This document shows positions 87 to 23,696 of a DNA stretch of 27,811 nucleotides, piece by piece. The stretch's first letter is position 1; each line of letters begins with the position of its first letter. The notes beneath the pieces were generated by a model. The model was not told the DNA's origin and searched no databases. It saw nothing but the letters and a program-made list of their open reading frames with translations. The position numbers and the translations under genes are program-made. Source of the stretch: a virus; IMG/VR virus record IMGVR_UViG_3300020472_000137, positions 1 through 27,811 of that record; one strand, given 5' to 3'.

Positions 87-407
87 CTAATCAAATAAAT
101 GATGCTTAGATGTGCCAGCATTATCATTTGATATATCTCCTATTCCAGTTTCTTCAGTTTCTTCTAACTCATAACTCCAATCTTCTATGACTGTATTAGA
201 AAGCATTCTATCAGATAAAAGATCCATTTCTTCTCTTGCTATCTCTTCAGTCTCTGCATCAAACCAAAAGTCTATTGCTTTACCAATCCTCAACAAATGT
301 GGTTTAAGATTAGGAGCAACTATATGTGTATTTTTCATAACTGCATTACCAGCAGCATCAGATACAGATCCTCTTAATCTGACAAAGACTAATGCTTTGA
401 ATCTCAT
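87..407 (-). CDS. purS: PurS subunit of phosphoribosylformylglycinamidine synthase
   Basis: This 106-residue protein matches the small PurS family. Visible signatures are an opening beta strand (FKALVFVRLR), the DAAGNAV helix start, LRIGKAIDF in the middle and SDRMLSNTVIEDW near residues 65-78. PurS is normally about 80 residues; here an acidic tail of about 25 residues is added. In bacteria PurS joins PurL and PurQ to convert FGAR to FGAM in de novo purine synthesis, which takes place in the cytosol. No purL or purQ is in this window, so the protein may work with host subunits or with phage genes elsewhere. The gene is the last of its unit: a structured leader and a strong promoter precede it and a terminator follows. 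The ribosome-binding site is weak (GAGTGGA just before the ATG). Confidence 0.85.
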   Translation of the reverse strand: MRFKALVFVRLRGSVSDAAGNAVMKNTHIVAPNLKPHLLRIGKAIDFWFDAETEEIAREEMDLLSDRMLSNTVIEDWSYELEETEETGIGDISNDNAGTSKHHLFD

Positions 408-420
408 ATATCCACTCTCA

Positions 421-628
421 AAAATATTGGGGTGGGAGGTTGGAATTCTGTATTACCAACAAAGAACGGGCATTACTACAGTAGTAAATTTTACGTCCTT
501 GCCTGAGACCCGACTGGTAAGTCGATTCTACTCTTGCGAGTAGCAGCACCACCTGTGTCTCGTCACCTTAACCAGCTATATGCCAGAAAGTTTATTCAGT
601 CACTCCCCGTTGAACCCGTCGATTCAAC
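421..628 (-). ncRNA. Structured non-coding RNA or purS leader (unknown class)
   Basis: No convincing gene lies between regA and purS, yet the stretch is clearly GC-richer than its surroundings and full of inverted repeats. Hairpins on the minus strand are: GTTGAA/TTCAAC at the predicted 5' end (627-609); CTACTC-GCAA-GAGTAG, a perfect GNRA tetraloop hairpin (543-528); CGACT-TACC-AGTCG (524-511); TTACTA/TAGTAA (487-473), itself enclosed by GGCA/TGCC (503-469); and GTTGG/CCAAC (460-439). GAGAC (561-557) can pair with GTCTC (509-505), enclosing the two central hairpins as a multi-branch junction. It could be a riboswitch-like leader of purS or an independent small RNA. I cannot match it to a named family. 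Confidence 0.6.
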
Positions 629-634
629 AAATAT

Positions 635-662
635 ATTATAGCATAAAAAAAGAGGGTGTCAA
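635..662 (-). promoter_or_regulatory. Strong sigma70-type promoter for ncRNA/purS
   Basis: The -35 box is a perfect TTGACA (662-657) and the -10 box a perfect TATAAT (640-635), with a 16-bp spacer. This is the best host-type promoter in the window. The predicted start is near position 628, just before the first hairpin of the structured RNA. The -35 box lies inside the stem-loop of the terminator that ends the regA unit. Confidence 0.85.
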
Positions 663-669
663 CCCCCTT
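645..669 (-). terminator. Intrinsic terminator at the end of regA
   Basis: On the minus strand GGGGGT and ACCCTC form a 6-bp stem (one G-U pair) around a TGAC loop, followed by seven T. The stem overlaps the regA stop codon and shares bases with the -35 box of the next promoter. Confidence 0.75.
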
Positions 670-1108
670 CTTCTCCTGATTCTGGTTTCTTTTTCTTTGC
701 TCCTATATTATACTTAGTTTCTAAAATCCAATCTCCTTTATCCTTATAAGATAAAACCTTGATCTGATTAAGAGGAGCAATGTCCTGTATCTTAGCACTA
801 TCTACAATACCAACCAATCCCCAATCAGCAAGCAACTGAGCAATACGATTCCTACGCTGTACATCATTAGATGTAAGGTTAGCGTGTTTCCCATCAAGGG
901 CAAACAATTCCTTAAAATGAACAAGGAAATACCTTCCTTGCTTATGCAGTATATGGCATGATTGATATATCTTTTTCTCTTTTCTTGATGCTACACCAAT
1001 TCTTGTAAGGGTTTCTCTTACCTTTAGGAAGTCATCTGGCTCATTCAGAGTCACTTCTACCATTTGATCCGCAGACCAATTCACTTCAGGTTCCTTAACC
1101 ACACTCAT
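659..1108 (-). CDS. regA: RegA translational repressor
   Basis: This 149-residue protein resembles T4 RegA, which binds AU-rich translation start regions of early mRNAs and represses their translation. Visible family features are the VEVTLNEPDDFLKVRETLTRIG opening region (residues about 17-38), a CHILHKQGRYFLVHFKELFALDG core and the RNRIAQLLADWGLV segment. It is longer than T4 RegA (122 residues) because of an N-terminal extension and a lysine-rich then acidic tail (AKKKKPESGEEGG). It overlaps the gp62 stop by ATGA, which keeps the T4 order 44-62-regA and suggests coupled translation. A terminator overlaps its stop codon. Confidence 0.93.
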   Translation of the reverse strand: MSVVKEPEVNWSADQMVEVTLNEPDDFLKVRETLTRIGVASRKEKKIYQSCHILHKQGRYFLVHFKELFALDGKHANLTSNDVQRRNRIAQLLADWGLVGIVDSAKIQDIAPLNQIKVLSYKDKGDWILETKYNIGAKKKKPESGEEGG

Positions 1109-1616: not shown

Positions 1617-2158
1617 AATTTGTATGCTAATGAAATCCTTAATCCATTAAAAAATCTAGATGGTGCATCTGCATAATGCCATATACTACCAGGAAAAAGA
1701 ACTGCTCTATTAGGTTTATATGAAATTATACGAGAAGTTTCCATATTTGGATTAACAAAATTATTACCTTCTGGAAGTTTATTGAGTTCCTGTTCCATAA
1801 AAATTAAATGTCCTTGCCAATTAACATTCCATTCTTGATTTGCATAATATAAAAATGTCAGATCACCATCATCAGTATGTGGTGTACCACATTGACCAGC
1901 AGTTTGACCATTAGCATATACTCTATCAATCTTACTAAATTTTCTATCTAATTTCTCACATATTTTCTCATAAAGAAAATCTGTAAAATATTCCTGTTCA
2001 TCTAATCCATCATAGTGCCAAAATATTTCAGGTTTTTCTGGTACTCCACCACTAAGACCCCAACGGGCAACCATCAATTTTTTAAATACTTCTAAATGAA
2101 TTTCTTTAGAAAAGAAATTATCATAAACTTGAACTTTAGTAGGTACTTCGTGTTTCAT
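1607..2158 (-). CDS. 2OG-Fe(II) oxygenase, HxD type
   Basis: A 183-residue protein with the jelly-roll pattern of Fe(II)/2-oxoglutarate dioxygenases. Proposed iron ligands are His94 and Asp96 (PHTDDGD) and His161 (SIWHYAD), and Arg174 (GLRISLAYK) probably binds 2-oxoglutarate. It closely resembles the gene at 15091-15633: both carry RVYANG, HTDxG, TFLYY and a terminal GLRxxxAxKL. Such enzymes hydroxylate proteins, nucleic acids or small molecules; the substrate here is unknown. It follows two small ORFs with a 2-nt gap and overlaps the next small ORF by 10 nt, so it belongs to the gp44-gp62 operon stretch. Confidence 0.85.
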   Translation of the reverse strand: MKHEVPTKVQVYDNFFSKEIHLEVFKKLMVARWGLSGGVPEKPEIFWHYDGLDEQEYFTDFLYEKICEKLDRKFSKIDRVYANGQTAGQCGTPHTDDGDLTFLYYANQEWNVNWQGHLIFMEQELNKLPEGNNFVNPNMETSRIISYKPNRAVLFPGSIWHYADAPSRFFNGLRISLAYKLWI

Positions 2159-3333: not shown

Positions 3334-3514
3334 AATTTAATTCTAATTGAAATTCTGTTTCAAACTTATTGTAAGTTGGTTCATGAAATGCACAATACTC
3401 ACTAAAGGTAATCATCATCTCCTTACGTGATAGTCTACAATGTTTTGCTGCCTTTGGCAAGTTCCATTTAGCAGAAAACAACATTTCCATTGCTTCTCTT
3501 GTTTCAGTTCTCAT
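3302..3514 (-). CDS. Small hypothetical protein, possible helix-turn-helix
   Basis: A 70-residue protein joined to the preceding oxygenase by TAATG and overlapping the methyltransferase start by 32 nt. Residues about 18-40 (WNLPKAAKHCRLSRKEM segment) have the spacing of a helix-turn-helix, with the NLPKAAKHC helix, a turn at RLSR and a second helix, much like short Fis- or resolvase-type DNA-binding units. The tail is acidic then basic. I infer a DNA-binding role with low certainty; I have not placed it in a named family. Confidence 0.75.
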   Translation of the reverse strand: MRTETREAMEMLFSAKWNLPKAAKHCRLSRKEMMITFSEYCAFHEPTYNKFETEFQLELNYEQKGSKNST

Positions 3515-4071
3515 TATGAATAAGTTATAACCATAACAACTCTTCTTTGTTTTGGTGCAGGTTGATGTATAGAATGATATAAACCATCAAAAATTATAAT
3601 ATCATCTTCAAGAGGTTTATATCTCTGCATAGATTTATCTTTACCGTAAACATCAATCTCACCATTATCAAAAGAATTAAAATAAATCAAACAATTCTTA
3701 TGATCCCAATTATAATGATCCAAATGTAGAGGACTTGGTTTACCATCATAATAATGTATTTGATTAACTACACACCTATAAAGTTGATTATAATCAACTT
3801 TATTATAAGAAAATATTTGTCGAATAACTTCAAATGTAATATCTGCGTATTGAGATGTTGTTTGTGGAATTAAAAATTCTTCTTTAGCATCTGCAGCTAA
3901 AACAATAGGATGTTGATATATTGGATTATTTGAAAATCCTTCTTGATCAAGAAGTGGATTAGTGGAATGTTCTAAGTACTTCCACATAAAATTAACGGAA
4001 AGTATTTCTTTCTTTAAAATACTATATTCCTTACTTTTAGGATTTTTTAATTTTTTAATAAAATCTGTCAT
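3514..4071 (-). CDS. 2OG-Fe(II) oxygenase-like protein, HxD type
   Basis: A 185-residue protein using the ATG at 4071; a longer reading from a TTG at 4092 is less likely. The second half carries a dioxygenase core: LHLDHYNWDH with likely iron ligands His116 and Asp118, LIYFN, then EDDIIIFDGLYHSIHQ with the distal His at 166 or 169, and RRVVMVITY with the 2-oxoglutarate arginine. The pattern is close to the prolyl-4-hydroxylase-type phage oxygenases. The substrate is unknown. It overlaps the 67-residue membrane protein before it by 17 nt and is joined to the next ORF by TAATG. Confidence 0.78.
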   Translation of the reverse strand: MTDFIKKLKNPKSKEYSILKKEILSVNFMWKYLEHSTNPLLDQEGFSNNPIYQHPIVLAADAKEEFLIPQTTSQYADITFEVIRQIFSYNKVDYNQLYRCVVNQIHYYDGKPSPLHLDHYNWDHKNCLIYFNSFDNGEIDVYGKDKSMQRYKPLEDDIIIFDGLYHSIHQPAPKQRRVVMVITYS

Positions 4072-4258
4072 TAGGATTATAATCCCTTCCAATTTCTACG
4101 TCAATAGCATCAAAGATTCTAAGTAATGCACCTGCATATAATCTATATCCTGAACCAACATATAATTGACCAAGTACAACTGATGTTGTTGCTACACCCC
4201 AAAAGATGTAATAAAATTTTGATTTAACTTGTGCCTTTTGCTTTTCTTTGGTTATCAT
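4055..4258 (-). CDS. Small membrane protein, 67 residues
   Basis: One hydrophobic segment is visible, about residues 14-34 (YYIFWGVATTSVVLGQLYVG), preceded by a lysine-rich N-terminus. The protein may be a single-pass inner membrane protein with the basic end inside the cell. The C-terminal part (RIFDAIDVEIGRDYNPNDRFY) is polar. It overlaps the 41-residue ORF before it by 35 nt and the following oxygenase by 17 nt. Its function is unknown; a role near the membrane-associated replication complex would be only a guess. Confidence 0.75.
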   Translation of the reverse strand: MITKEKQKAQVKSKFYYIFWGVATTSVVLGQLYVGSGYRLYAGALLRIFDAIDVEIGRDYNPNDRFY

Positions 4259-4349: not shown

Positions 4350-5287
4350 TTAAACTCACACTCTACCATTATTTCGGTAAGACACGCAAGCATATTTATC
4401 TCTTGATCTGCTACAAATGCTATTTGGTACTGGTACTTCGCAATAATAAGAATGGCAGCAGGAATAGTGGAAGGGACAAGGGATTCGTAAAGACTATCGT
4501 AGAGGCGACGCAATAATACAGTAGGATCATTGTCCAAGTTATTGACACACCATTTACGTACTTCTGGAAAGTTCTTCGCTTTGAGGTTTTTCGTAAGCTC
4601 ATCTACTTTAACGTCACTAAAATGTGCAAGTATTCCACTATCTATCTTACCTCCCACCGAGTATCTTTGACACTCATTGAGAACCCTACGCCAATCGGGA
4701 AAGTGCTTGTTGATAAGTTCGGCAAGTACTTTCTTATCAGCCTCAACCCGTTCTTGCTCCAGTATGTAGTTAACTCTAGTGAAAAACTTGGCAGCAATTC
4801 CTTGTTTTTGTTTTCCATTTACTGAAAAGTCAATGACAGCACAACGACTATGGAGTGGTTCGATGATCTTATTCTTATAGTTGCAGGTGAAGATAAACCT
4901 ACAGTTTCTTTGGAACTCCTCAATACTCGCTCTGAGAAGGAGTTGTACATCGGGAGTGGTATTGTCTGCTTCATCGATGATGATAACTTTGTGTTTCGAC
5001 TCACTCGTGAGAGATACCGTAGACGCAAAGTTCTTGGCATTATTCCTAACAGTGTCAAGAAAACGCCCCTCATCCGATCCGTTAATGACATAATAATCTG
5101 CCCCTAACTGGTTACATAAACATTTAGCAACCGTGGTCTTTCCAATACCTGGAGGACCTGAAAGAAGCATATTAGGAATCTCACCCTTAGATAAAAAATC
5201 CTGAAAAGTTTTTTTAATGTTTTCAGGTAAAATACAATCTTCAATTGTCTGGGGTCTGTATTTTTCAACCCAAATAAAGTCACTCAT
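4346..5287 (-). CDS. gp44: Clamp loader large subunit gp44 (AAA+ ATPase)
   Basis: A 313-residue AAA+ ATPase of the RFC/gp44 family, which opens and loads the gp45 clamp. Visible motifs are an N-terminal FIWVEKYRP box (residues 4-12), Walker A GPPGIGKT (44-51), Walker B VIIIDEAD (101-108), sensor 1 FIFTCNY (131-137) and the SRC arginine finger motif (147-149). T4 gp44 is 319 residues. The start was chosen at the ATG at 5287, which gives the canonical SDFIWVEKYRP opening; a 17-residue longer reading would run far back into the preceding gene. It overlaps that oxygenase gene by 8 nt and shares ATGA with the 41-residue ORF after it. Confidence 0.96.
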   Translation of the reverse strand: MSDFIWVEKYRPQTIEDCILPENIKKTFQDFLSKGEIPNMLLSGPPGIGKTTVAKCLCNQLGADYYVINGSDEGRFLDTVRNNAKNFASTVSLTSESKHKVIIIDEADNTTPDVQLLLRASIEEFQRNCRFIFTCNYKNKIIEPLHSRCAVIDFSVNGKQKQGIAAKFFTRVNYILEQERVEADKKVLAELINKHFPDWRRVLNECQRYSVGGKIDSGILAHFSDVKVDELTKNLKAKNFPEVRKWCVNNLDNDPTVLLRRLYDSLYESLVPSTIPAAILIIAKYQYQIAFVADQEINMLACLTEIMVECEFK

Positions 5288-5837
5288 AATTAAAAATAGG
5301 ATCAATTGGATTGACCTTGTTAAGATCAACATCCCCAAGATTCAAATTAATAGCAATAGTAGTTTTCCTAGTATCACTTCTAATAAGAGGAGATCTATGT
5401 ATTATATACGATGGAAATATTATAACATCACCTTCACCACATTCCATTTGAAAAGTATCTTTTTTTTGAATATCGACAAATTCTGTACTATATTTTGCAT
5501 CATCCAATTCAACAAAATATGACATGGAAATACTAGAATTTCCATGAAAATGCCAACCGTGAAAATCATTATTATTATATTGTTGGAACCACACACCCAT
5601 TATTCCAAAATTTCCTGCCCAATATTTGTGACAAATTTCATCCCACAAAGGAGTTAAATTTTGACTTAGAACATTAAAATATTCAGGAAATGATTCCAAA
5701 TTATCATAGAAATCTGTTTTAGTTACATAATCTGGACTTGAATTTATTTGTTCATAATCGGATATAAGATCTAATAAATTAGATTTTATTTTTGAATGAC
5801 ATTCAAGTTTATGTTTCCAAACAAGATCTCTACTCAT
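5280..5837 (-). CDS. 2OG-Fe(II) oxygenase-like protein, HxH type
   Basis: A 185-residue protein with a dioxygenase jelly-roll core. It shows GWHFHGNSS with the metal-binding region at His96/His98, then a beta strand SMSYFVEL, GEGDVIIFPSYIIHRSP with distal His147, and RKTTIAINLNLG with Arg157 as the probable 2-oxoglutarate contact. The first motif is H-x-H rather than H-x-D/E. It stands between the sliding clamp unit and gp44, in ATGA overlap with the 50-residue ORF before it and 8-nt overlap with gp44 after it. The substrate is unknown. Confidence 0.78.
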   Translation of the reverse strand: MSRDLVWKHKLECHSKIKSNLLDLISDYEQINSSPDYVTKTDFYDNLESFPEYFNVLSQNLTPLWDEICHKYWAGNFGIMGVWFQQYNNNDFHGWHFHGNSSISMSYFVELDDAKYSTEFVDIQKKDTFQMECGEGDVIIFPSYIIHRSPLIRSDTRKTTIAINLNLGDVDLNKVNPIDPIFNYE

Positions 5838-7261: not shown

Positions 7262-7290
7262 ATTATATCAAGTGTTTGGAATTTAGTCAA
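7262..7290 (-). promoter_or_regulatory. Sigma70-type promoter for the DUF3310-gp45 unit
   Basis: TTGACT (7290-7285) and TATAAT (7267-7262) are separated by 17 bp on the minus strand. The -35 box overlaps the last codons of the oxygenase gene before it. It probably drives the clamp and clamp-loader genes in the early or middle phase by host RNA polymerase. Confidence 0.8.
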
Positions 7291-7880
7291 GAGATAAAAC
7301 CATGATAATCTAAATTTCCAACTAAAGCAATTCTTTCCTCACTTCCATTATCCTCTGCATTAACTCCATGAGTTGAATGTGCAGAAAACATAGTAAGATA
7401 ACCTTCTCTTGCTGGAATTTCTTCCCCATTAACATTTAAAGGAGCTGAATTTTCATCAGCTTTAGAATAATAACTAAAACTAATTGAAGAAGGAAAATGA
7501 TTATGAGGACTAACACCTTGCTGACCATTATAAACAATACCCCAACATTCTTCTAAATGAAAACCTTCTGGATTCCATCTTCCTGTATTAAGAGTATGAT
7601 TTAAAATTTTATCATACTTATCATCATCAATCGTTGAATCTAAAGCAGATGTAATTGCAACTCTTGGAGTAATACTTAAAACTAATCTTAAAATTTTTGT
7701 TACTGCCTCATTATTAAAGGTGTGAAGATTAAATGGTGTAATAGATGCAGCACGTTCACTATCCATATTAAATTCCCTAACCTTTTTAGAAAGATTTGAT
7801 TTTATAAAAGAATTAATAAGAGGATTTAACTCTCGAATATCAATTCCAAAATCAGCAACATTAATTTGAGTAATTATCAT
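7287..7880 (-). CDS. 2OG-Fe(II) oxygenase-like protein, HxH type
   Basis: A 197-residue protein with a dioxygenase core in its second half. It shows SPHNHFPSSISFSYY with His126/His128, GYLTMFSAHSTHGV with distal His171 near residues 160-173, and ERIALVGNLDY with Arg183. The usual FPS before the distal histidine is replaced by FSA. The N-terminal 100 residues are not recognised. It overlaps the previous oxygenase gene by 4 nt (ATGA), so the two are probably co-translated. The substrate is unknown. Confidence 0.75.
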   Translation of the reverse strand: MIITQINVADFGIDIRELNPLINSFIKSNLSKKVREFNMDSERAASITPFNLHTFNNEAVTKILRLVLSITPRVAITSALDSTIDDDKYDKILNHTLNTGRWNPEGFHLEECWGIVYNGQQGVSPHNHFPSSISFSYYSKADENSAPLNVNGEEIPAREGYLTMFSAHSTHGVNAEDNGSEERIALVGNLDYHGFIS

Positions 7881-8548
7881 GAAGAAATAGGATAATTTGA
7901 AAAATAATTTATTTCTGCTGACACATCATTAATAGTTAATTCATGAACATTAAATGAAATTGTTATTCGTTCAGCATCACTTTTAAATGGATAAACAGCA
8001 TGCCAAAGATCTGAAGGAAACAAATACATATAACCACTCTTAGGGCGAACAAGAATATGCTGATTACCAAAAATAAATTCTAAACAACCACAAGCTTTTG
8101 CTGTATAATCACTAGTTTCTCTTTCATTTTCTATTTTATCAGGAATATCAACAAAAACTACAGCACTAAGTCTTCCAGAATGATTATGTATTGGATTAAA
8201 TTCACCATTTTTTTGATAGTTAATCCAAGGACCTTCTCCTAAATTATAGGTTACTTTTGCTTCATTAATATTAAAAGGTACTTCTTCAATAAGACAACAA
8301 TTCTTAATACTATTATGTCGACTATGCTTTTCATGTAGATAATTTAAAATATGTTCATTAAGAAAACCAACAAACTTATCTGGATCATATGGTGATAATC
8401 TTTGTTCATCTATATTACCAACCAAATATTCTTTAGCAGATAATGAAGTTCGATGATCATCAACACCTTCAAGAAGGAAATCGTGAAATTTCCCTCTTAT
8501 ATCTGCCTTATAAATCAAAGGTCCAAATGGTGTGCAAACACTATGCAT
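7877..8548 (-). CDS. 2OG-Fe(II) oxygenase-like protein, HxH type
   Basis: A 223-residue protein. The core reads NPIHNHSGRLSAVVFVDIP with His121/His123, then CLEFIFG, then SGYMYLFPSDLWHAVYPF with distal His183, then ERITISFNVHEL with Arg194. This matches the phage oxygenase family in which an FPSxLxH segment carries the distal histidine. It overlaps the cobS-like gene by 8 nt and the next oxygenase by ATGA, so an ATPase and two oxygenases form one translational chain. The substrate is unknown. Confidence 0.8.
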   Translation of the reverse strand: MHSVCTPFGPLIYKADIRGKFHDFLLEGVDDHRTSLSAKEYLVGNIDEQRLSPYDPDKFVGFLNEHILNYLHEKHSRHNSIKNCCLIEEVPFNINEAKVTYNLGEGPWINYQKNGEFNPIHNHSGRLSAVVFVDIPDKIENERETSDYTAKACGCLEFIFGNQHILVRPKSGYMYLFPSDLWHAVYPFKSDAERITISFNVHELTINDVSAEINYFSNYPISS

Positions 8549-13072: not shown

Positions 13073-13756
13073 TCAACTGTCTACGTCTTTCTCTAAGAAA
13101 AATACTTGATTACACCTATAATTTTCCCAATGTACTTGTGGATAAGAGAACAGAGGTATATCTCTAAAGAATCTATCATTAACAATATTCATACTATGAG
13201 GGAACTTAGAACCATCAAAAAGGACTAATGAATTATATTTGGATTTAAAAGTTTTTAAAACAGAATAGAGTTCTTTTGGTCTCCAAGACAAATAATGTTC
13301 TGGTGCAGATAATCTATATTTCCATTCTGGATTCTTACAAACTTCTGGATCAAAAAGATTAGTTCCAGAATCTTCCTCATTTTTATTAAAGTAGACTATA
13401 CCATTCCAACCAAGATCTAAATGAGGCCACCAAAAACAGTTTTTATAATCATTAAAATCATTCTTAGAGAATCTAGACATGTTAGTATAAATGATAGATT
13501 CATAACCCACTCCACACAAATTACCTAAAAACTCATAAATATCCTCCAATCTATCGTCTTTTAATATCAATCTCCTCTCATTAAAATACAAACTATTATA
13601 TGATGGACTTTCTTTAATTTTCCATAAAGGAACTTCTCGGTTAAAAAGATAATCAGCAACTTCTTCAGGATTTTTATAAAAATTATCTATAATATAAATC
13701 TTTGTTCCTAATAAAAATTCCTCATTTACTTCAAGATTCTTATTTAATTCAAACAT
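13073..13756 (-). CDS. 2OG-oxygenase-like protein (DUF6445-like), HxD type
   Basis: A 227-residue protein whose core reads WWPHLDLGWNGIVYFN (His112, Asp114), GTNLF, then LVLFDGSKFPHSMN (distal His187) and RCNQVFFLEK (Arg214). The HxD...H...R order fits an Fe(II)/2-oxoglutarate enzyme, and the WNGIVYFN and RCNQVFFL blocks recall the DUF6445 family. The N-terminal part contains YIIDNFYKNPEEVADYL, a common opening of such hydroxylase-like proteins. It overlaps a small ORF by 13 nt at its start, and a hairpin with GAGG lies just before its ATG. The substrate is unknown. Confidence 0.75.
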   Translation of the reverse strand: MFELNKNLEVNEEFLLGTKIYIIDNFYKNPEEVADYLFNREVPLWKIKESPSYNSLYFNERRLILKDDRLEDIYEFLGNLCGVGYESIIYTNMSRFSKNDFNDYKNCFWWPHLDLGWNGIVYFNKNEEDSGTNLFDPEVCKNPEWKYRLSAPEHYLSWRPKELYSVLKTFKSKYNSLVLFDGSKFPHSMNIVNDRFFRDIPLFSYPQVHWENYRCNQVFFLEKDVDS

Positions 13757-13902
13757 AATATAAAAGAACCTCGCTTTTTAGGCGAGGTATATAAATGACT
13801 AATTAACTGTTTGCGTCTTTCTTTAGCACTTCGGAGTGCTTGCGGTTTAAGATGGCGTTTCTGTTCCTTCTTAGAATGATGCTGCCAATTCGGTATATTC
13901 AT
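13744..13902 (-). CDS. Small basic protein, 52 residues
   Basis: The ORF starts in the ATGA that ends the preceding oxygenase gene and runs without a stop through two hairpins into the next gene. The first 35 residues are very rich in K, R, H and Q (IPNWQHHSKKEQKRHLKP, then ALRSAKERRKQL), as in small RNA- or DNA-binding proteins. The last 15 residues (SPKKRGSFILCLN) are encoded by the terminator-like hairpin and its tail. That is unusual and suggests that an earlier stop codon was lost or that the hairpin acts mainly on RNA. Translation is supported by the ATGA overlap only. Confidence 0.6.
   Translation of the reverse strand: MNIPNWQHHSKKEQKRHLKPQALRSAKERRKQLISHLYTSPKKRGSFILCLN
13761..13788 (-). 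terminator. Terminator-like hairpin within the 52-residue ORF
   Basis: A perfect 7-bp stem ACCTCGC/GCGAGGT with a 7-nt A-rich loop is followed by TCTTTT on the minus strand. The 3' arm contains GAGG, the nearest ribosome-binding site to the ATG at 13756. The hairpin may end transcription, mask that site, or both. Confidence 0.6.
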
Positions 13903-14495
13903 TGGTAGTTGTAGCTTGAATCTCCATGATACACCTTACCGTGTGGCATGAAGTTCATTGCAAGGGAATACCTATATTTATCGGTATCATTTTCCACCGT
14001 CCAATGGAACATATGACTCGGAAATATTAGCATTGTACCTTTTTTGATTTGAATTTCTGCCTTACCATAAGGTATGAACTGAGGATCAGTGCATTTAAAT
14101 CCAATATCAATTTGAGGTTGATCTGCTTTCTCAAATATGATTGATGATGTATTTTCATACGGATAAAAAACAGCACTCCACATACAGTTAGTATGTTTAT
14201 GCCTATAAATCACAGAACCAGGAGATGTACGTGTCCACCAACTAGTAGTCATTTTCATTGGAAGTTCATATCCAAGAGTTTCTAGACACAAATTAACCTT
14301 AGCATCAAACTGTCCAGAAATATACTTATACGATCTTAATATAAATTTATCACTACTTGCATCATTAGCTTTATTTGTCCATTTAATATCTTCTAGAGTT
14401 TTCAAAGAAGGTTTAATCAACTCTGTTGCATCTATCTGATAAAGAAGTGTAGGAAATAATCTGAGTATTCCCATCTCAACATTTTTCTTACCCAT
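13899..14495 (-). CDS. 2OG-Fe(II) oxygenase-like protein, tandem copy B
   Basis: A 198-residue protein paralogous to its upstream neighbour at 14498-15112. Shared blocks are FPTLxY, KMTTSW, HTNCxWS, a distal FPSHMFH segment and the end MPxGxVxxGDSSxNY. Core residues are His99/His101 (RHKHTN), FPSHMFH (158-164) and Arg175 (YRYSLAMN). The first motif lacks the usual H-x-D aspartate. It begins 2 nt after its paralogue and ends in ATGA shared with the small basic ORF. The substrate is unknown; the duplication suggests two related substrates or a heteromer. Confidence 0.8.
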   Translation of the reverse strand: MGKKNVEMGILRLFPTLLYQIDATELIKPSLKTLEDIKWTNKANDASSDKFILRSYKYISGQFDAKVNLCLETLGYELPMKMTTSWWTRTSPGSVIYRHKHTNCMWSAVFYPYENTSSIIFEKADQPQIDIGFKCTDPQFIPYGKAEIQIKKGTMLIFPSHMFHWTVENDTDKYRYSLAMNFMPHGKVYHGDSSYNYQ

Positions 14496-14497
14496 TT

Positions 14498-15112
14498 TTA
14501 ATAATTAAAAGAAGAATCTCCACATACAACTTGTCCATCTGGCATATAATTCATTGCCATAGAATATCTTATCTTATCTTTTGAATTACATACAACCTTA
14601 TGTTTTAATATACTCGGAAATAATAACAATCGTCCACTTTGACAAGGAAATCCAACATCGCCATATTGACCTAATTCAGAACTTGAACTATTAGATGGTA
14701 CATGAATTGCTGGAGTATCTTTTATAAAAGTTAACATACCATTATCTTCCTCAAAATAAAATACAGAACTCCAAATACAATTTGTATGATTATGAGTTTC
14801 AATATGTCCATATGGAGCAATCCTAGTAAACCAACTAGTAGTCATCTTAAAAGAAGTTTCAAATTCAGATTCTGCTAAAGCATCATTTACTCTATTTTCA
14901 AATTCTTTAACTAACTCAGTATTAGTATTACTTAAAGCATATAAATCTTCAGATTGACCATGATATTGACTATCATTAAAAACAATATCTTTAGCTATTT
15001 TTTTTACGTCATCAATTAAATCAGAACAATCTAAAACATAAACCAATGTTGGGAAAATGTTAAATCTATAATTGCCATTATCAAATTTTGTTACGTTACC
15101 TTGAGTTTCCAT
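14498..15112 (-). CDS. 2OG-Fe(II) oxygenase-like protein, tandem copy A
   Basis: A 204-residue protein paralogous to the gene at 13899-14495. It carries NIFPTLVYVLD near the start, KMTTSWFTRIAP (89-100), ETHNHTNCIWSSVFYF (His107/His109), LLLFPSILKHKV (distal His171) and IRYSMAMNYMP (Arg182). A serine-rich insertion (SNSSSSELG near 140-148) distinguishes it from copy B. It overlaps the previous oxygenase by 22 nt, so three oxygenase genes follow each other without spacers. The substrate is unknown. Confidence 0.8.
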   Translation of the reverse strand: METQGNVTKFDNGNYRFNIFPTLVYVLDCSDLIDDVKKIAKDIVFNDSQYHGQSEDLYALSNTNTELVKEFENRVNDALAESEFETSFKMTTSWFTRIAPYGHIETHNHTNCIWSSVFYFEEDNGMLTFIKDTPAIHVPSNSSSSELGQYGDVGFPCQSGRLLLFPSILKHKVVCNSKDKIRYSMAMNYMPDGQVVCGDSSFNY

Positions 15113-15633
15113 GCTATTGTTACCCTTAATCCATAAAATAATCTAGTAGTTGATTCTGCATAATGATACAGATTTGATGGAAAAAATACACCAGTATTTG
15201 GTTTAGGATAATAGTTATAATGATTTCCATCATTATCTAAAATCCATATAGTAGATCCACCCCACTCATTATACCATTCAGAATTACCATAATACAAGAA
15301 AGTATAATGCCCAGTATCAGTATGATCTTGATGAACCTGTCCTTGAGTACCAAAAAGATGCCCATTAGCATAAACTCTTTTTAACTCTAAATCAGATTTA
15401 TCAATTTTACTTTTTATTGTTTCAAATAATTCTTCACTATAAAAAGAATCATCATCCAATTTCATCTTCCAAAAAGGAATAGAATCCACTTCTGCATTTG
15501 ATAGATTTCCATAATACCATTTCTCAACTTTAGGAAGTTCCCATATCTTACGACACTGTTCTTCAGAAAATAAATCAGAAATAATCTTTATGGAATTTTT
15601 ATTTCGTATACCTAACTCTGATAATTTAGTCAT
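15091..15633 (-). CDS. 2OG-Fe(II) oxygenase, HxD type
   Basis: A 180-residue protein related to the oxygenase at 1607-2158. Iron ligands are probably His104 and Asp106 (HTDTGHYTFLYY) with distal His157 (FFPSNLYHYAES), and Arg170 (YGLRVTIAWKL) probably binds 2-oxoglutarate. A WGGST segment sits between the motifs, as in small phage prolyl-hydroxylase-like enzymes. It overlaps the gp46 stop region by 8 nt and the next oxygenase by 22 nt, so it is the first of a block of oxygenase genes attached to the recombination operon. Confidence 0.86.
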   Translation of the reverse strand: MTKLSELGIRNKNSIKIISDLFSEEQCRKIWELPKVEKWYYGNLSNAEVDSIPFWKMKLDDDSFYSEELFETIKSKIDKSDLELKRVYANGHLFGTQGQVHQDHTDTGHYTFLYYGNSEWYNEWGGSTIWILDNDGNHYNYYPKPNTGVFFPSNLYHYAESTTRLFYGLRVTIAWKLKVT

Positions 15634-22600: not shown

Positions 22601-23047
22601 CTATTTAGAAGATCTTTGGGTAAAATCAATACCTTCCATATGATCATACTCATGTTGGAATATTCTTGCAATAAATCCTTCTAATTTAATTTTATGCAAT
22701 TTCTTACCCTCATCTTCATATTTAACGACAATTGTAGATGGTCTTGATATATTCAATTGTAGACCAGGATATGAAAGACATCCCTCTTCATAAGATATTA
22801 ATTTTTTAGATTCTTTTATAATCTTAGGATTAAAACAAGTTATAGTTTCTTCACTCTCTATATCACTCATCATTACAAATGCTCTTTCATTTATACCTAT
22901 TTGATTTGCAGAAAGACCTACACCACCATAATGAAACATATTTTCTGTAAGAGTATATGATAACTTAGAACGATCTAAATTATAACTACATTTTTTAATT
23001 TTTTGATGTAGTAAAACATCATCAATAGGAATTAAATTCTTTATCAT
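22601..23047 (-). CDS. def: Peptide deformylase
   Basis: A 148-residue enzyme with all three deformylase motifs: GVGLSANQIG (residues 42-51, the usual GxGLAAxQxG), EGCLS (88-92, with the metal-binding cysteine) and QHEYDH (131-136, HExxH). It removes the formyl group from nascent proteins. Cyanophages carry it often, and a role in keeping photosystem D1 synthesis going is the usual proposal. It is short because it lacks the C-terminal helix of longer bacterial forms. It is joined to the oxygenase before it by TAATG, and both follow the terminator after gp23. Confidence 0.95.
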   Translation of the reverse strand: MIKNLIPIDDVLLHQKIKKCSYNLDRSKLSYTLTENMFHYGGVGLSANQIGINERAFVMMSDIESEETITCFNPKIIKESKKLISYEEGCLSYPGLQLNISRPSTIVVKYEDEGKKLHKIKLEGFIARIFQHEYDHMEGIDFTQRSSK

Positions 23048-23676
23048 TATTCTACAGTTAAATTAAAAGATATTGCTATCCTATCATCATCTACTTCATT
23101 AGTTAAAACACAATGTTCTAAACAAGATGGGAATAAGTACATATTTCCTTCTATAGGTTCTCTTCCTGTAGCTTCACCACCAGTATATCTTTCTACAAAA
23201 AATCTATTACCATAAGTATATCCTTGTCTAGGATCGGCAAAACTTATACTACCACATTTACCTTTTGGAACTTTAACATAATAAACCCCAGATATATCAC
23301 ATCCTGGATGATTATGAGAACTATTATATGAATATTTTCCATTTACCATTGTCCATATACCTAAACTTATAATTTTAGAAATTGCTGGATAAAATGGTAA
23401 GTTTGGTAATATAAATGTAATCTTATCTATTAGTGGTTGATATATTGAACTTATATCATTATTATATTGAATTTGAGAGTGCCATCCACCCCAATTAGAT
23501 AAACTAATACCATCTTTATCATCTTCTTTTAATTTATAGATATCTTCTTCTAACTTTCTATTATCTATTCCATCAATACTAATTTCAAACAATGGTGTTT
23601 GATATAACATTTGATGAACTATTGTACAATCTTTTAACTCTAAAGTTTGATTTGGTACACGAATATGTTTATCCAT
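23047..23676 (-). CDS. 2OG-Fe(II) oxygenase, HxH type, upstream of deformylase
   Basis: A 209-residue protein from the ATG at 23676; a TTG two codons earlier is less likely. The core is SSHNHPGCDISGVYYVKVP with His121/His123, SISFADPR, then EGNMYLFPSCLEHCVL with distal His188, and DRIAISFNL with Arg199. This is the clearest member here of the phage 2OG oxygenase family with SGVYY, FADPR and FPSxLxH blocks. It opens a cassette with peptide deformylase. AGAAG lies before the ATG. The substrate is unknown. Confidence 0.86.
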   Translation of the reverse strand: MDKHIRVPNQTLELKDCTIVHQMLYQTPLFEISIDGIDNRKLEEDIYKLKEDDKDGISLSNWGGWHSQIQYNNDISSIYQPLIDKITFILPNLPFYPAISKIISLGIWTMVNGKYSYNSSHNHPGCDISGVYYVKVPKGKCGSISFADPRQGYTYGNRFFVERYTGGEATGREPIEGNMYLFPSCLEHCVLTNEVDDDRIAISFNLTVE

Positions 23677-23696
23677 TTTCAACTTCTAATAATATT

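Follow-up and report, generated by a model that had tools for sequence, protein, structure and literature searches.

The manA RNA between regA and purS of a P-SSM2-like cyanophage: a conserved structured RNA that may be an autonomous phage gene rather than a riboswitch

Introduction

In the virus DNA presented above (a contig of 27.8 kb, hereafter the window), regA and purS are separated by a region that raises the question what kind of RNA is made there. A sequence-only reading had proposed a structured RNA of no known family behind a strong promoter, either the leader of purS or an independent small RNA of the phage. Here we identify the RNA, compare it with its relatives in other phages and weigh the two options.

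Results and discussion

A full-length manA RNA

A search of Rfam contradicted the idea that the RNA is without a known family. The manA model (RF01745) matches the minus strand of the window at 626-429 with 182.2 bits (cut-off 55.2, E 1.7e-49) over its full length (model positions 1-192 of 192), and the window RNA is a member of this family; other Rfam families gave, at a relaxed threshold in this region of the window, weak matches only, all below the cut-off. The nearest isolate is Prochlorococcus phage P-SSM2, whose RNA is 99.1% identical and occupies the same locus, with regA on one side and purS (annotated purL) on the other, and the virus that hosts the window element is a T4-like cyanophage close to P-SSM2. 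Given the full-length match and the P-SSM2 copy at the same locus, the family was already known (since 2010) and the window copy is ordinary for it: it has the same fold and occurs in the same kind of phage as the RNAs of Weinberg et al. (2010), and the RNA itself is no different. Its presence in marine T4-like cyanophages fits the description of the family, and so does, in the window, the potential 5' UTR position (the RNA ends 21 nt before the start codon of purS), a position that across the family holds for part of the copies only.

The features of the locus are collected in Table 1. The promoter (TTGACA-16 bp-TATAAT, minus strand) agrees with the consensus at 12/12 positions, and transcription would be expected to start at about 628. 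The enrichment in G+C that had been remarked on (0.43-0.45 in the region versus 0.27-0.38 nearby) and the lack of a convincing gene on the minus strand between regA and purS were both confirmed. What had been overlooked is that regA ends in a terminator-like hairpin of 13 bp with the -35 box within it.

Table 1. Features of the regA-manA-purS locus in the window
Feature	Position	Strand	Evidence or remark
regA (translational repressor), gene preceding the RNA	659..1108	-	PF01818, E 5.1e-45; phrog_242
Terminator-like hairpin and U tract	645..674	-	overlaps the regA stop codon; loop and 3' arm hold the -35 box
-35 box TTGACA	657..662	-	
-10 box TATAAT	635..640	-	
manA RNA (RF01745), full length	429..626	-	182.2 bits; covariation
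P1, 5' terminal hairpin	611..626	-	sequence-variable
GGGAG, 5' strand of the long-range closing helix	603..607	-	
CUCCC, 3' strand of the long-range closing helix	434..438	-	
Multi-branch domain, closed by GAGAC/GTCTC, with three hairpins	505..561	-	helices 5 to 8
purS, first gene past the RNA, 21 nt downstream	87..407	-	PF02700, E 2.4e-13; phrog_1282

Elsewhere on the minus strand of the window many ORFs have the appearance of small 2OG-Fe(II)-oxygenase-type proteins, namely those at 1607-2158, 3514-4092, 5280-5837, 7287-8548, 13073-15633 and 23047-23682; the one at 1607-2158, the only one of them searched, gave a weak PF13640 match below the cut-off. In P-SSM2 (L281:3294-7000), hsp20, a gene with the label ferredoxin/purM and purM come after purS, an arrangement that suggests a purine gene block after manA in the P-SSM2 lineage.

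Sampling of manA copies

Copies in viral contigs were found through exact matches to a conserved 20-mer or to a variant form, through relatives of purS and through isolate phages, and were located with an iterated nucleotide profile. Removal of near-duplicates left 125 copies with full flanks, which were drawn by conserved sequence and among the matches listed. A scan of 84,980 species genomes with the exact pattern gave 17 loci, only four of which (L128, L129, L131 and L137) were among the loci with a manA RNA. At first sight these four look like phage contigs or like phage in single-cell or metagenome assemblies, and a cellular origin of manA was provisionally rejected on that ground; the contigs of L131 and L137, both of which carry manA, are filed as a Prochlorococcus single cell and a gammaproteobacterial MAG, respectively. 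Gammaproteobacterial manA RNAs, which the 2010 paper includes, did not turn up in this sampling.

The fold is supported by covariation

At its 5' end the manA fold has the P1 hairpin, followed by the closing helix GGGNG/CNCCC, within which lie a hairpin interrupted by an internal loop, a multi-branch helix that bears three hairpins, and two more hairpins. The structure was corrected in Rfam 14 (PMC7779021). We aligned 38 diverse copies with MAFFT, in which P1 (helix 1) is poorly aligned, and projected the Rfam structure from the window copy. Pairing is kept in 90.6% of the cells of this alignment; column shuffles reach 77.9%, and slid controls no more than 47.4%. Both sides have changed in 32 of the 55 pairs, and 274 cells are compensatory versus 89 in shuffles. 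Covariation in manA is thus very strong and demonstrates a conserved multi-branch structure.

The details of the fold that had been read from the single sequence fared unequally. The hairpin with the GCAA loop belongs to the Rfam consensus structure, and the GAGAC/GTCTC helix that was thought to close a multi-branch junction (561-557 with 509-505) is helix 5 of that consensus and carries compensatory changes. The pairing of GACGGG (620-615) with CCCGTT (470-465) that was to join the two ends is absent from the consensus fold, these bases being part of P1 and of helix 9; the true long-range helix is GGGAG/CUCCC. The sequence GAATCGAC does occur twice (521-528 and 618-625; at least two copies were seen in 1 of 100 shuffles), but it is not a conserved feature, because the first copy lies within the sequence-variable P1, and a functional repeat was rejected for this reason. 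In a larger set, the variable position of the closing helix is occupied by an A-U pair in 96 copies and by U-A in 19, and is mismatched in 5. We rejected CCUCC as a mimic of an anti-Shine-Dalgarno sequence, since in the 19 copies its U changes to A together with the partner base.

The folding energy of the region is ordinary for its composition (z = -1.22, with 20 of 200 shuffles folding equally well), so that support for the structure comes from covariation and not from thermodynamic stability. That ordinary energy, together with an ORF of 118 amino acids on the opposite strand, would suit the view that the region has no RNA function, being either a G+C-rich spacer whose hairpins arose by chance or a piece of a gene that went unrecognised. 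Such a view is refuted by the strength of the Rfam match and by the pairing and two-sided changes described above, and we give it practically no credence. A structured RNA behind a strong promoter, as first proposed, is borne out by the Rfam match, the covariation and the promoter match.

A putative dedicated promoter, often fused to an upstream terminator-like hairpin

Promoter and terminator calls were pattern-based. A sigma-70-type TTGACA/TATAAT promoter with at most 1 mismatch in 12 positions is found within the 80 nt before the closing helix in 118 of the 125 copies, whereas regions preceding other ORFs of these contigs yielded one in 3.5% of cases and shuffles never did. The -10 box ends at a nearly fixed distance, 19-31 nt before the closing helix, so that transcription would start at P1. 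By this consensus, 118/125 copies would have the promoter of their own that is expected of an autonomous small RNA gene. A promoter-like match is absent from two copies, L114 and L043, and on inspection of the sequence both have a tRNA-like sequence just upstream of manA.

In the window the -35 box and the terminator-like hairpin that ends regA use the same bases (674-635, minus strand), and the fold of 636-676 has an energy of -15.2 kcal/mol (z -3.67). In 61/125 copies the -35 box is likewise part of a hairpin of the preceding gene that resembles an intrinsic terminator. Such a fusion would insulate the RNA from upstream transcription and at the same time supply it with its own promoter.

No fixed partner gene downstream

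The ORFs downstream of the collected copies fall into 36 unrelated clusters, including gp32, transaldolase, PurS, a protein matching Hsp20 in PHROG, many small ORFs without an assigned function, and mannose-6-phosphate-isomerase-like cupin and 2OG-oxygenase-like proteins, some of these neighbours being named from a reading of the sequence without a family match. Of these, gp32, transaldolase and PurS recur, and metabolic genes are frequent. With 36 clusters, tRNAs and terminators following the RNA, the downstream genes lack the functional coherence expected for a metabolite riboswitch. Among isolates the RNA precedes purS (P-SSM2 and P-SSM5), a Nol-like carbamoyltransferase gene (P-SSM7), transaldolase (P-RSM6), gp32 (P-HM2), small ORFs after gp23 (P-HM1, P-RSM4, MbCM1, S-SSM5, MED4-213 and P-RSM1), small ORFs after pstS (P-SSM4, P-SSM3 and P-RSM3), an 81-aa ORF near transaldolase (P-TIM68) or tRNAs (S-SSM7 and ACG-2014f). 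By the covariance model, each of the 17 carrier phage genomes examined has a single copy.

A tRNA, a terminator, a late-promoter-like motif or a second RNA module stands before or at the next ORF (within 150-200 nt) in 72/125 copies, and in the other 53 (about 40%), the window copy included, an ORF follows directly with no separating feature. Terminators are enriched downstream of manA (22/125 versus 27/608 before other ORFs), and so is the late-promoter-like motif [CA]TAAATA (36/125 versus 102/608), which we take to be the cyanophage late promoter. G is almost absent from the first ten or so positions past the closing helix, and this linker could be a cleavage site. In ACG-2014f (L447) a divergent manA RNA (1501-1711) is placed between tRNA-Arg (1426-1499) and tRNA-Asn (1713-1784) with spacers of 1 nt, and in S-SSM7 tRNA-Gly starts at the last base of the RNA. 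In such positions tRNA processing would release the RNA, and these two copies are hard to reconcile with a control of translation.

These surroundings bear on the main rival of an autonomous RNA gene, a cis-acting leader that does not depend on the identity of its gene and confers put-like resistance to terminators or protects the mRNA from decay, so that any gene may follow. A position immediately behind a strong promoter and the lack of a partner gene are what such a leader would have, the terminators just downstream are what an antiterminator would read through, and the copies directly followed by an ORF are in line with it as well. However, the ACG-2014f copy sits inside a tRNA operon, in many copies the next gene has late-promoter-like motifs of its own, there is only one copy per genome, and in P-HM2 that copy precedes just one gene, the last of its strand block. 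We regard a leader of this kind as improbable, though still a better candidate than a classical riboswitch.

Two further RNA elements were observed near manA. A conserved module of 40 nt (RACCTAAGATGCAACTC..GAGTSGGGCAGATGGTY) lies 5-17 nt past manA in 109 of its 121 exact matches (L012:3486-3540, L020:8945-9000 and about 100 other loci, none in the window). Its outer stem covaries (GACC/GGTC with AACC/GGTT), it often ends with a run of U, its internal loop looks like a kink-turn by eye, and a comparison with Rfam gave no match. In one contig, matches to the glutamine riboswitch (L058:1194-1242 and 1707-1802, minus strand) flank a manA RNA.

Tests of the riboswitch view

Weinberg et al. (2010) presented manA as a cis-regulatory element and probable riboswitch, with genes of nucleotide and sugar metabolism downstream (PMC2864571). 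Rfam likewise classes it as cis-regulatory, and the cis label was repeated in the S-CREM1 paper (PMC9964418) and in a 2025 review (PMC12197685). Within the literature searched, to which most subscription journals do not belong, we found no proposal of manA as an autonomous gene. In the published interpretation a metabolite bound by the fold would regulate whichever gene comes next, in the window purS; besides the gene context, the complexity and strong conservation of the fold speak for it.

A control of this type would be expected to leave traces downstream of the RNA. Across the copies we found no conserved expression platform that competes with the aptamer, the one possible case being P-SSM7, in which CCCTC of the CUCCC strand could pair in an immediate terminator. 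In complementarity to downstream DNA, the CNCCC strand shows no preference for that of its own copy over that of the others (-4.93 versus -5.31 kcal/mol), and switching of a Shine-Dalgarno sequence or a terminator through this strand was rejected for want of excess complementarity. Shine-Dalgarno motifs are in fact rarer after manA than elsewhere (9/85 versus 137/608).

Nor is the RNA tied to purS. It stands directly upstream of purS in only 13 of 73 testable purS loci; in most purS loci without it, the start of purS overlaps or abuts the preceding gene. In P-SSM7, purS is found at about 19.5 kb and the only manA at 171.5 kb. As most purS loci do without the RNA, a purS-specific leader was rejected. 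Together with the single copy per genome, the unrelated downstream features (tRNAs and terminators among them) and the want of a conserved platform, this makes a cis-acting riboswitch an unlikely reading, and the less likely of the two cis-acting ones.

Comparison with other RNAs sharpens the difference. PhotoRC-II (RF01717) is, like manA, a structured RNA of the same cyanophages and of the same size range or smaller, but it always stands directly before psbA, whereas manA has no fixed partner gene. We found it in 19/21 of these phages, with psbA directly after it in 19/19, a control in the same genomes of how a gene-tied element keeps its gene; manA does not. The glutamine riboswitch is a validated riboswitch class. 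Its RNA (glnA RNA, RF01739) also occurs in cyanophages and lies near manA in a few contigs, and no sequence relation between the two was found. The put RNA of phage HK022 is a processive antiterminator. It resembles manA, as a comparison of the way of working only, in that it is an RNA of a phage, follows a promoter directly and does not depend on which gene lies downstream; unlike it, manA can also sit within a tRNA operon.

manA as a candidate autonomous RNA gene

The comparison thus moves RF01745, hitherto described as a cis-regulatory riboswitch candidate, towards an autonomous RNA gene. We think it probable, though by no means certain, that manA is a noncoding RNA gene of the phage with a dedicated promoter, which is not a riboswitch and acts in trans. 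The host RNA polymerase with a sigma-70-type factor would start a few nt before P1 at this promoter, and the RNA of about 200 nt would fold into the conserved multi-branch structure, closed by GGGNG/CNCCC, that the covariation demonstrates. It may then be freed from the downstream sequence by tRNA processing, by a terminator or by cleavage in the G-poor linker, and would act in trans, most likely through a protein partner of host or phage.

In the window, where promoter, RNA and purS are contiguous and 21 nt separate the RNA from the start codon, transcription could run on into purS, and the RNA would then also head the purS transcript. Since transcription can continue in this way, purS is probably co-expressed with the RNA without being its specific target. 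Of the two roles initially considered, the comparison favours the independent small RNA; that of a purS leader is less probable but may still apply in this one genome because of that contiguity.

Distribution over phages

All 13 tested phages isolated on Prochlorococcus carry manA, 12 of which had been picked through BLAST matches; P-RSM1, chosen without prior BLAST knowledge, also carries it. Among the records named after Prochlorococcus that contain a relative of gp23, 20/24 have a blastn match to this RNA, and the remaining four would be explained by Syn1 and Syn33, phages that were obtained on Synechococcus and in which the covariance model finds no manA. In 13 tested phages isolated on Synechococcus manA was not found, in contrast to the carriers S-SSM5, S-SSM7 and S-TIM4 (the last by blastn). 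ACG-2014f carries manA as well and its record states no host. On the reading preferred here, manA would be an RNA gene mostly of Prochlorococcus phages. A fuller statement, that it is a single-copy, self-promoted and trans-acting RNA gene of practically every T4-like phage isolated on Prochlorococcus, that it fits into tRNA operons and that many copies are extended by the 40-nt module, we hold to have slightly better than even chances.

If manA is reclassified in this way, an RNA that has been a riboswitch candidate since 2010 would no longer be searched for a ligand and would become a testable phage RNA gene. Prochlorococcus is among the most abundant photosynthetic cells on Earth, and the presence of manA in all tested phages isolated on it suggests a role that is tied to this host.
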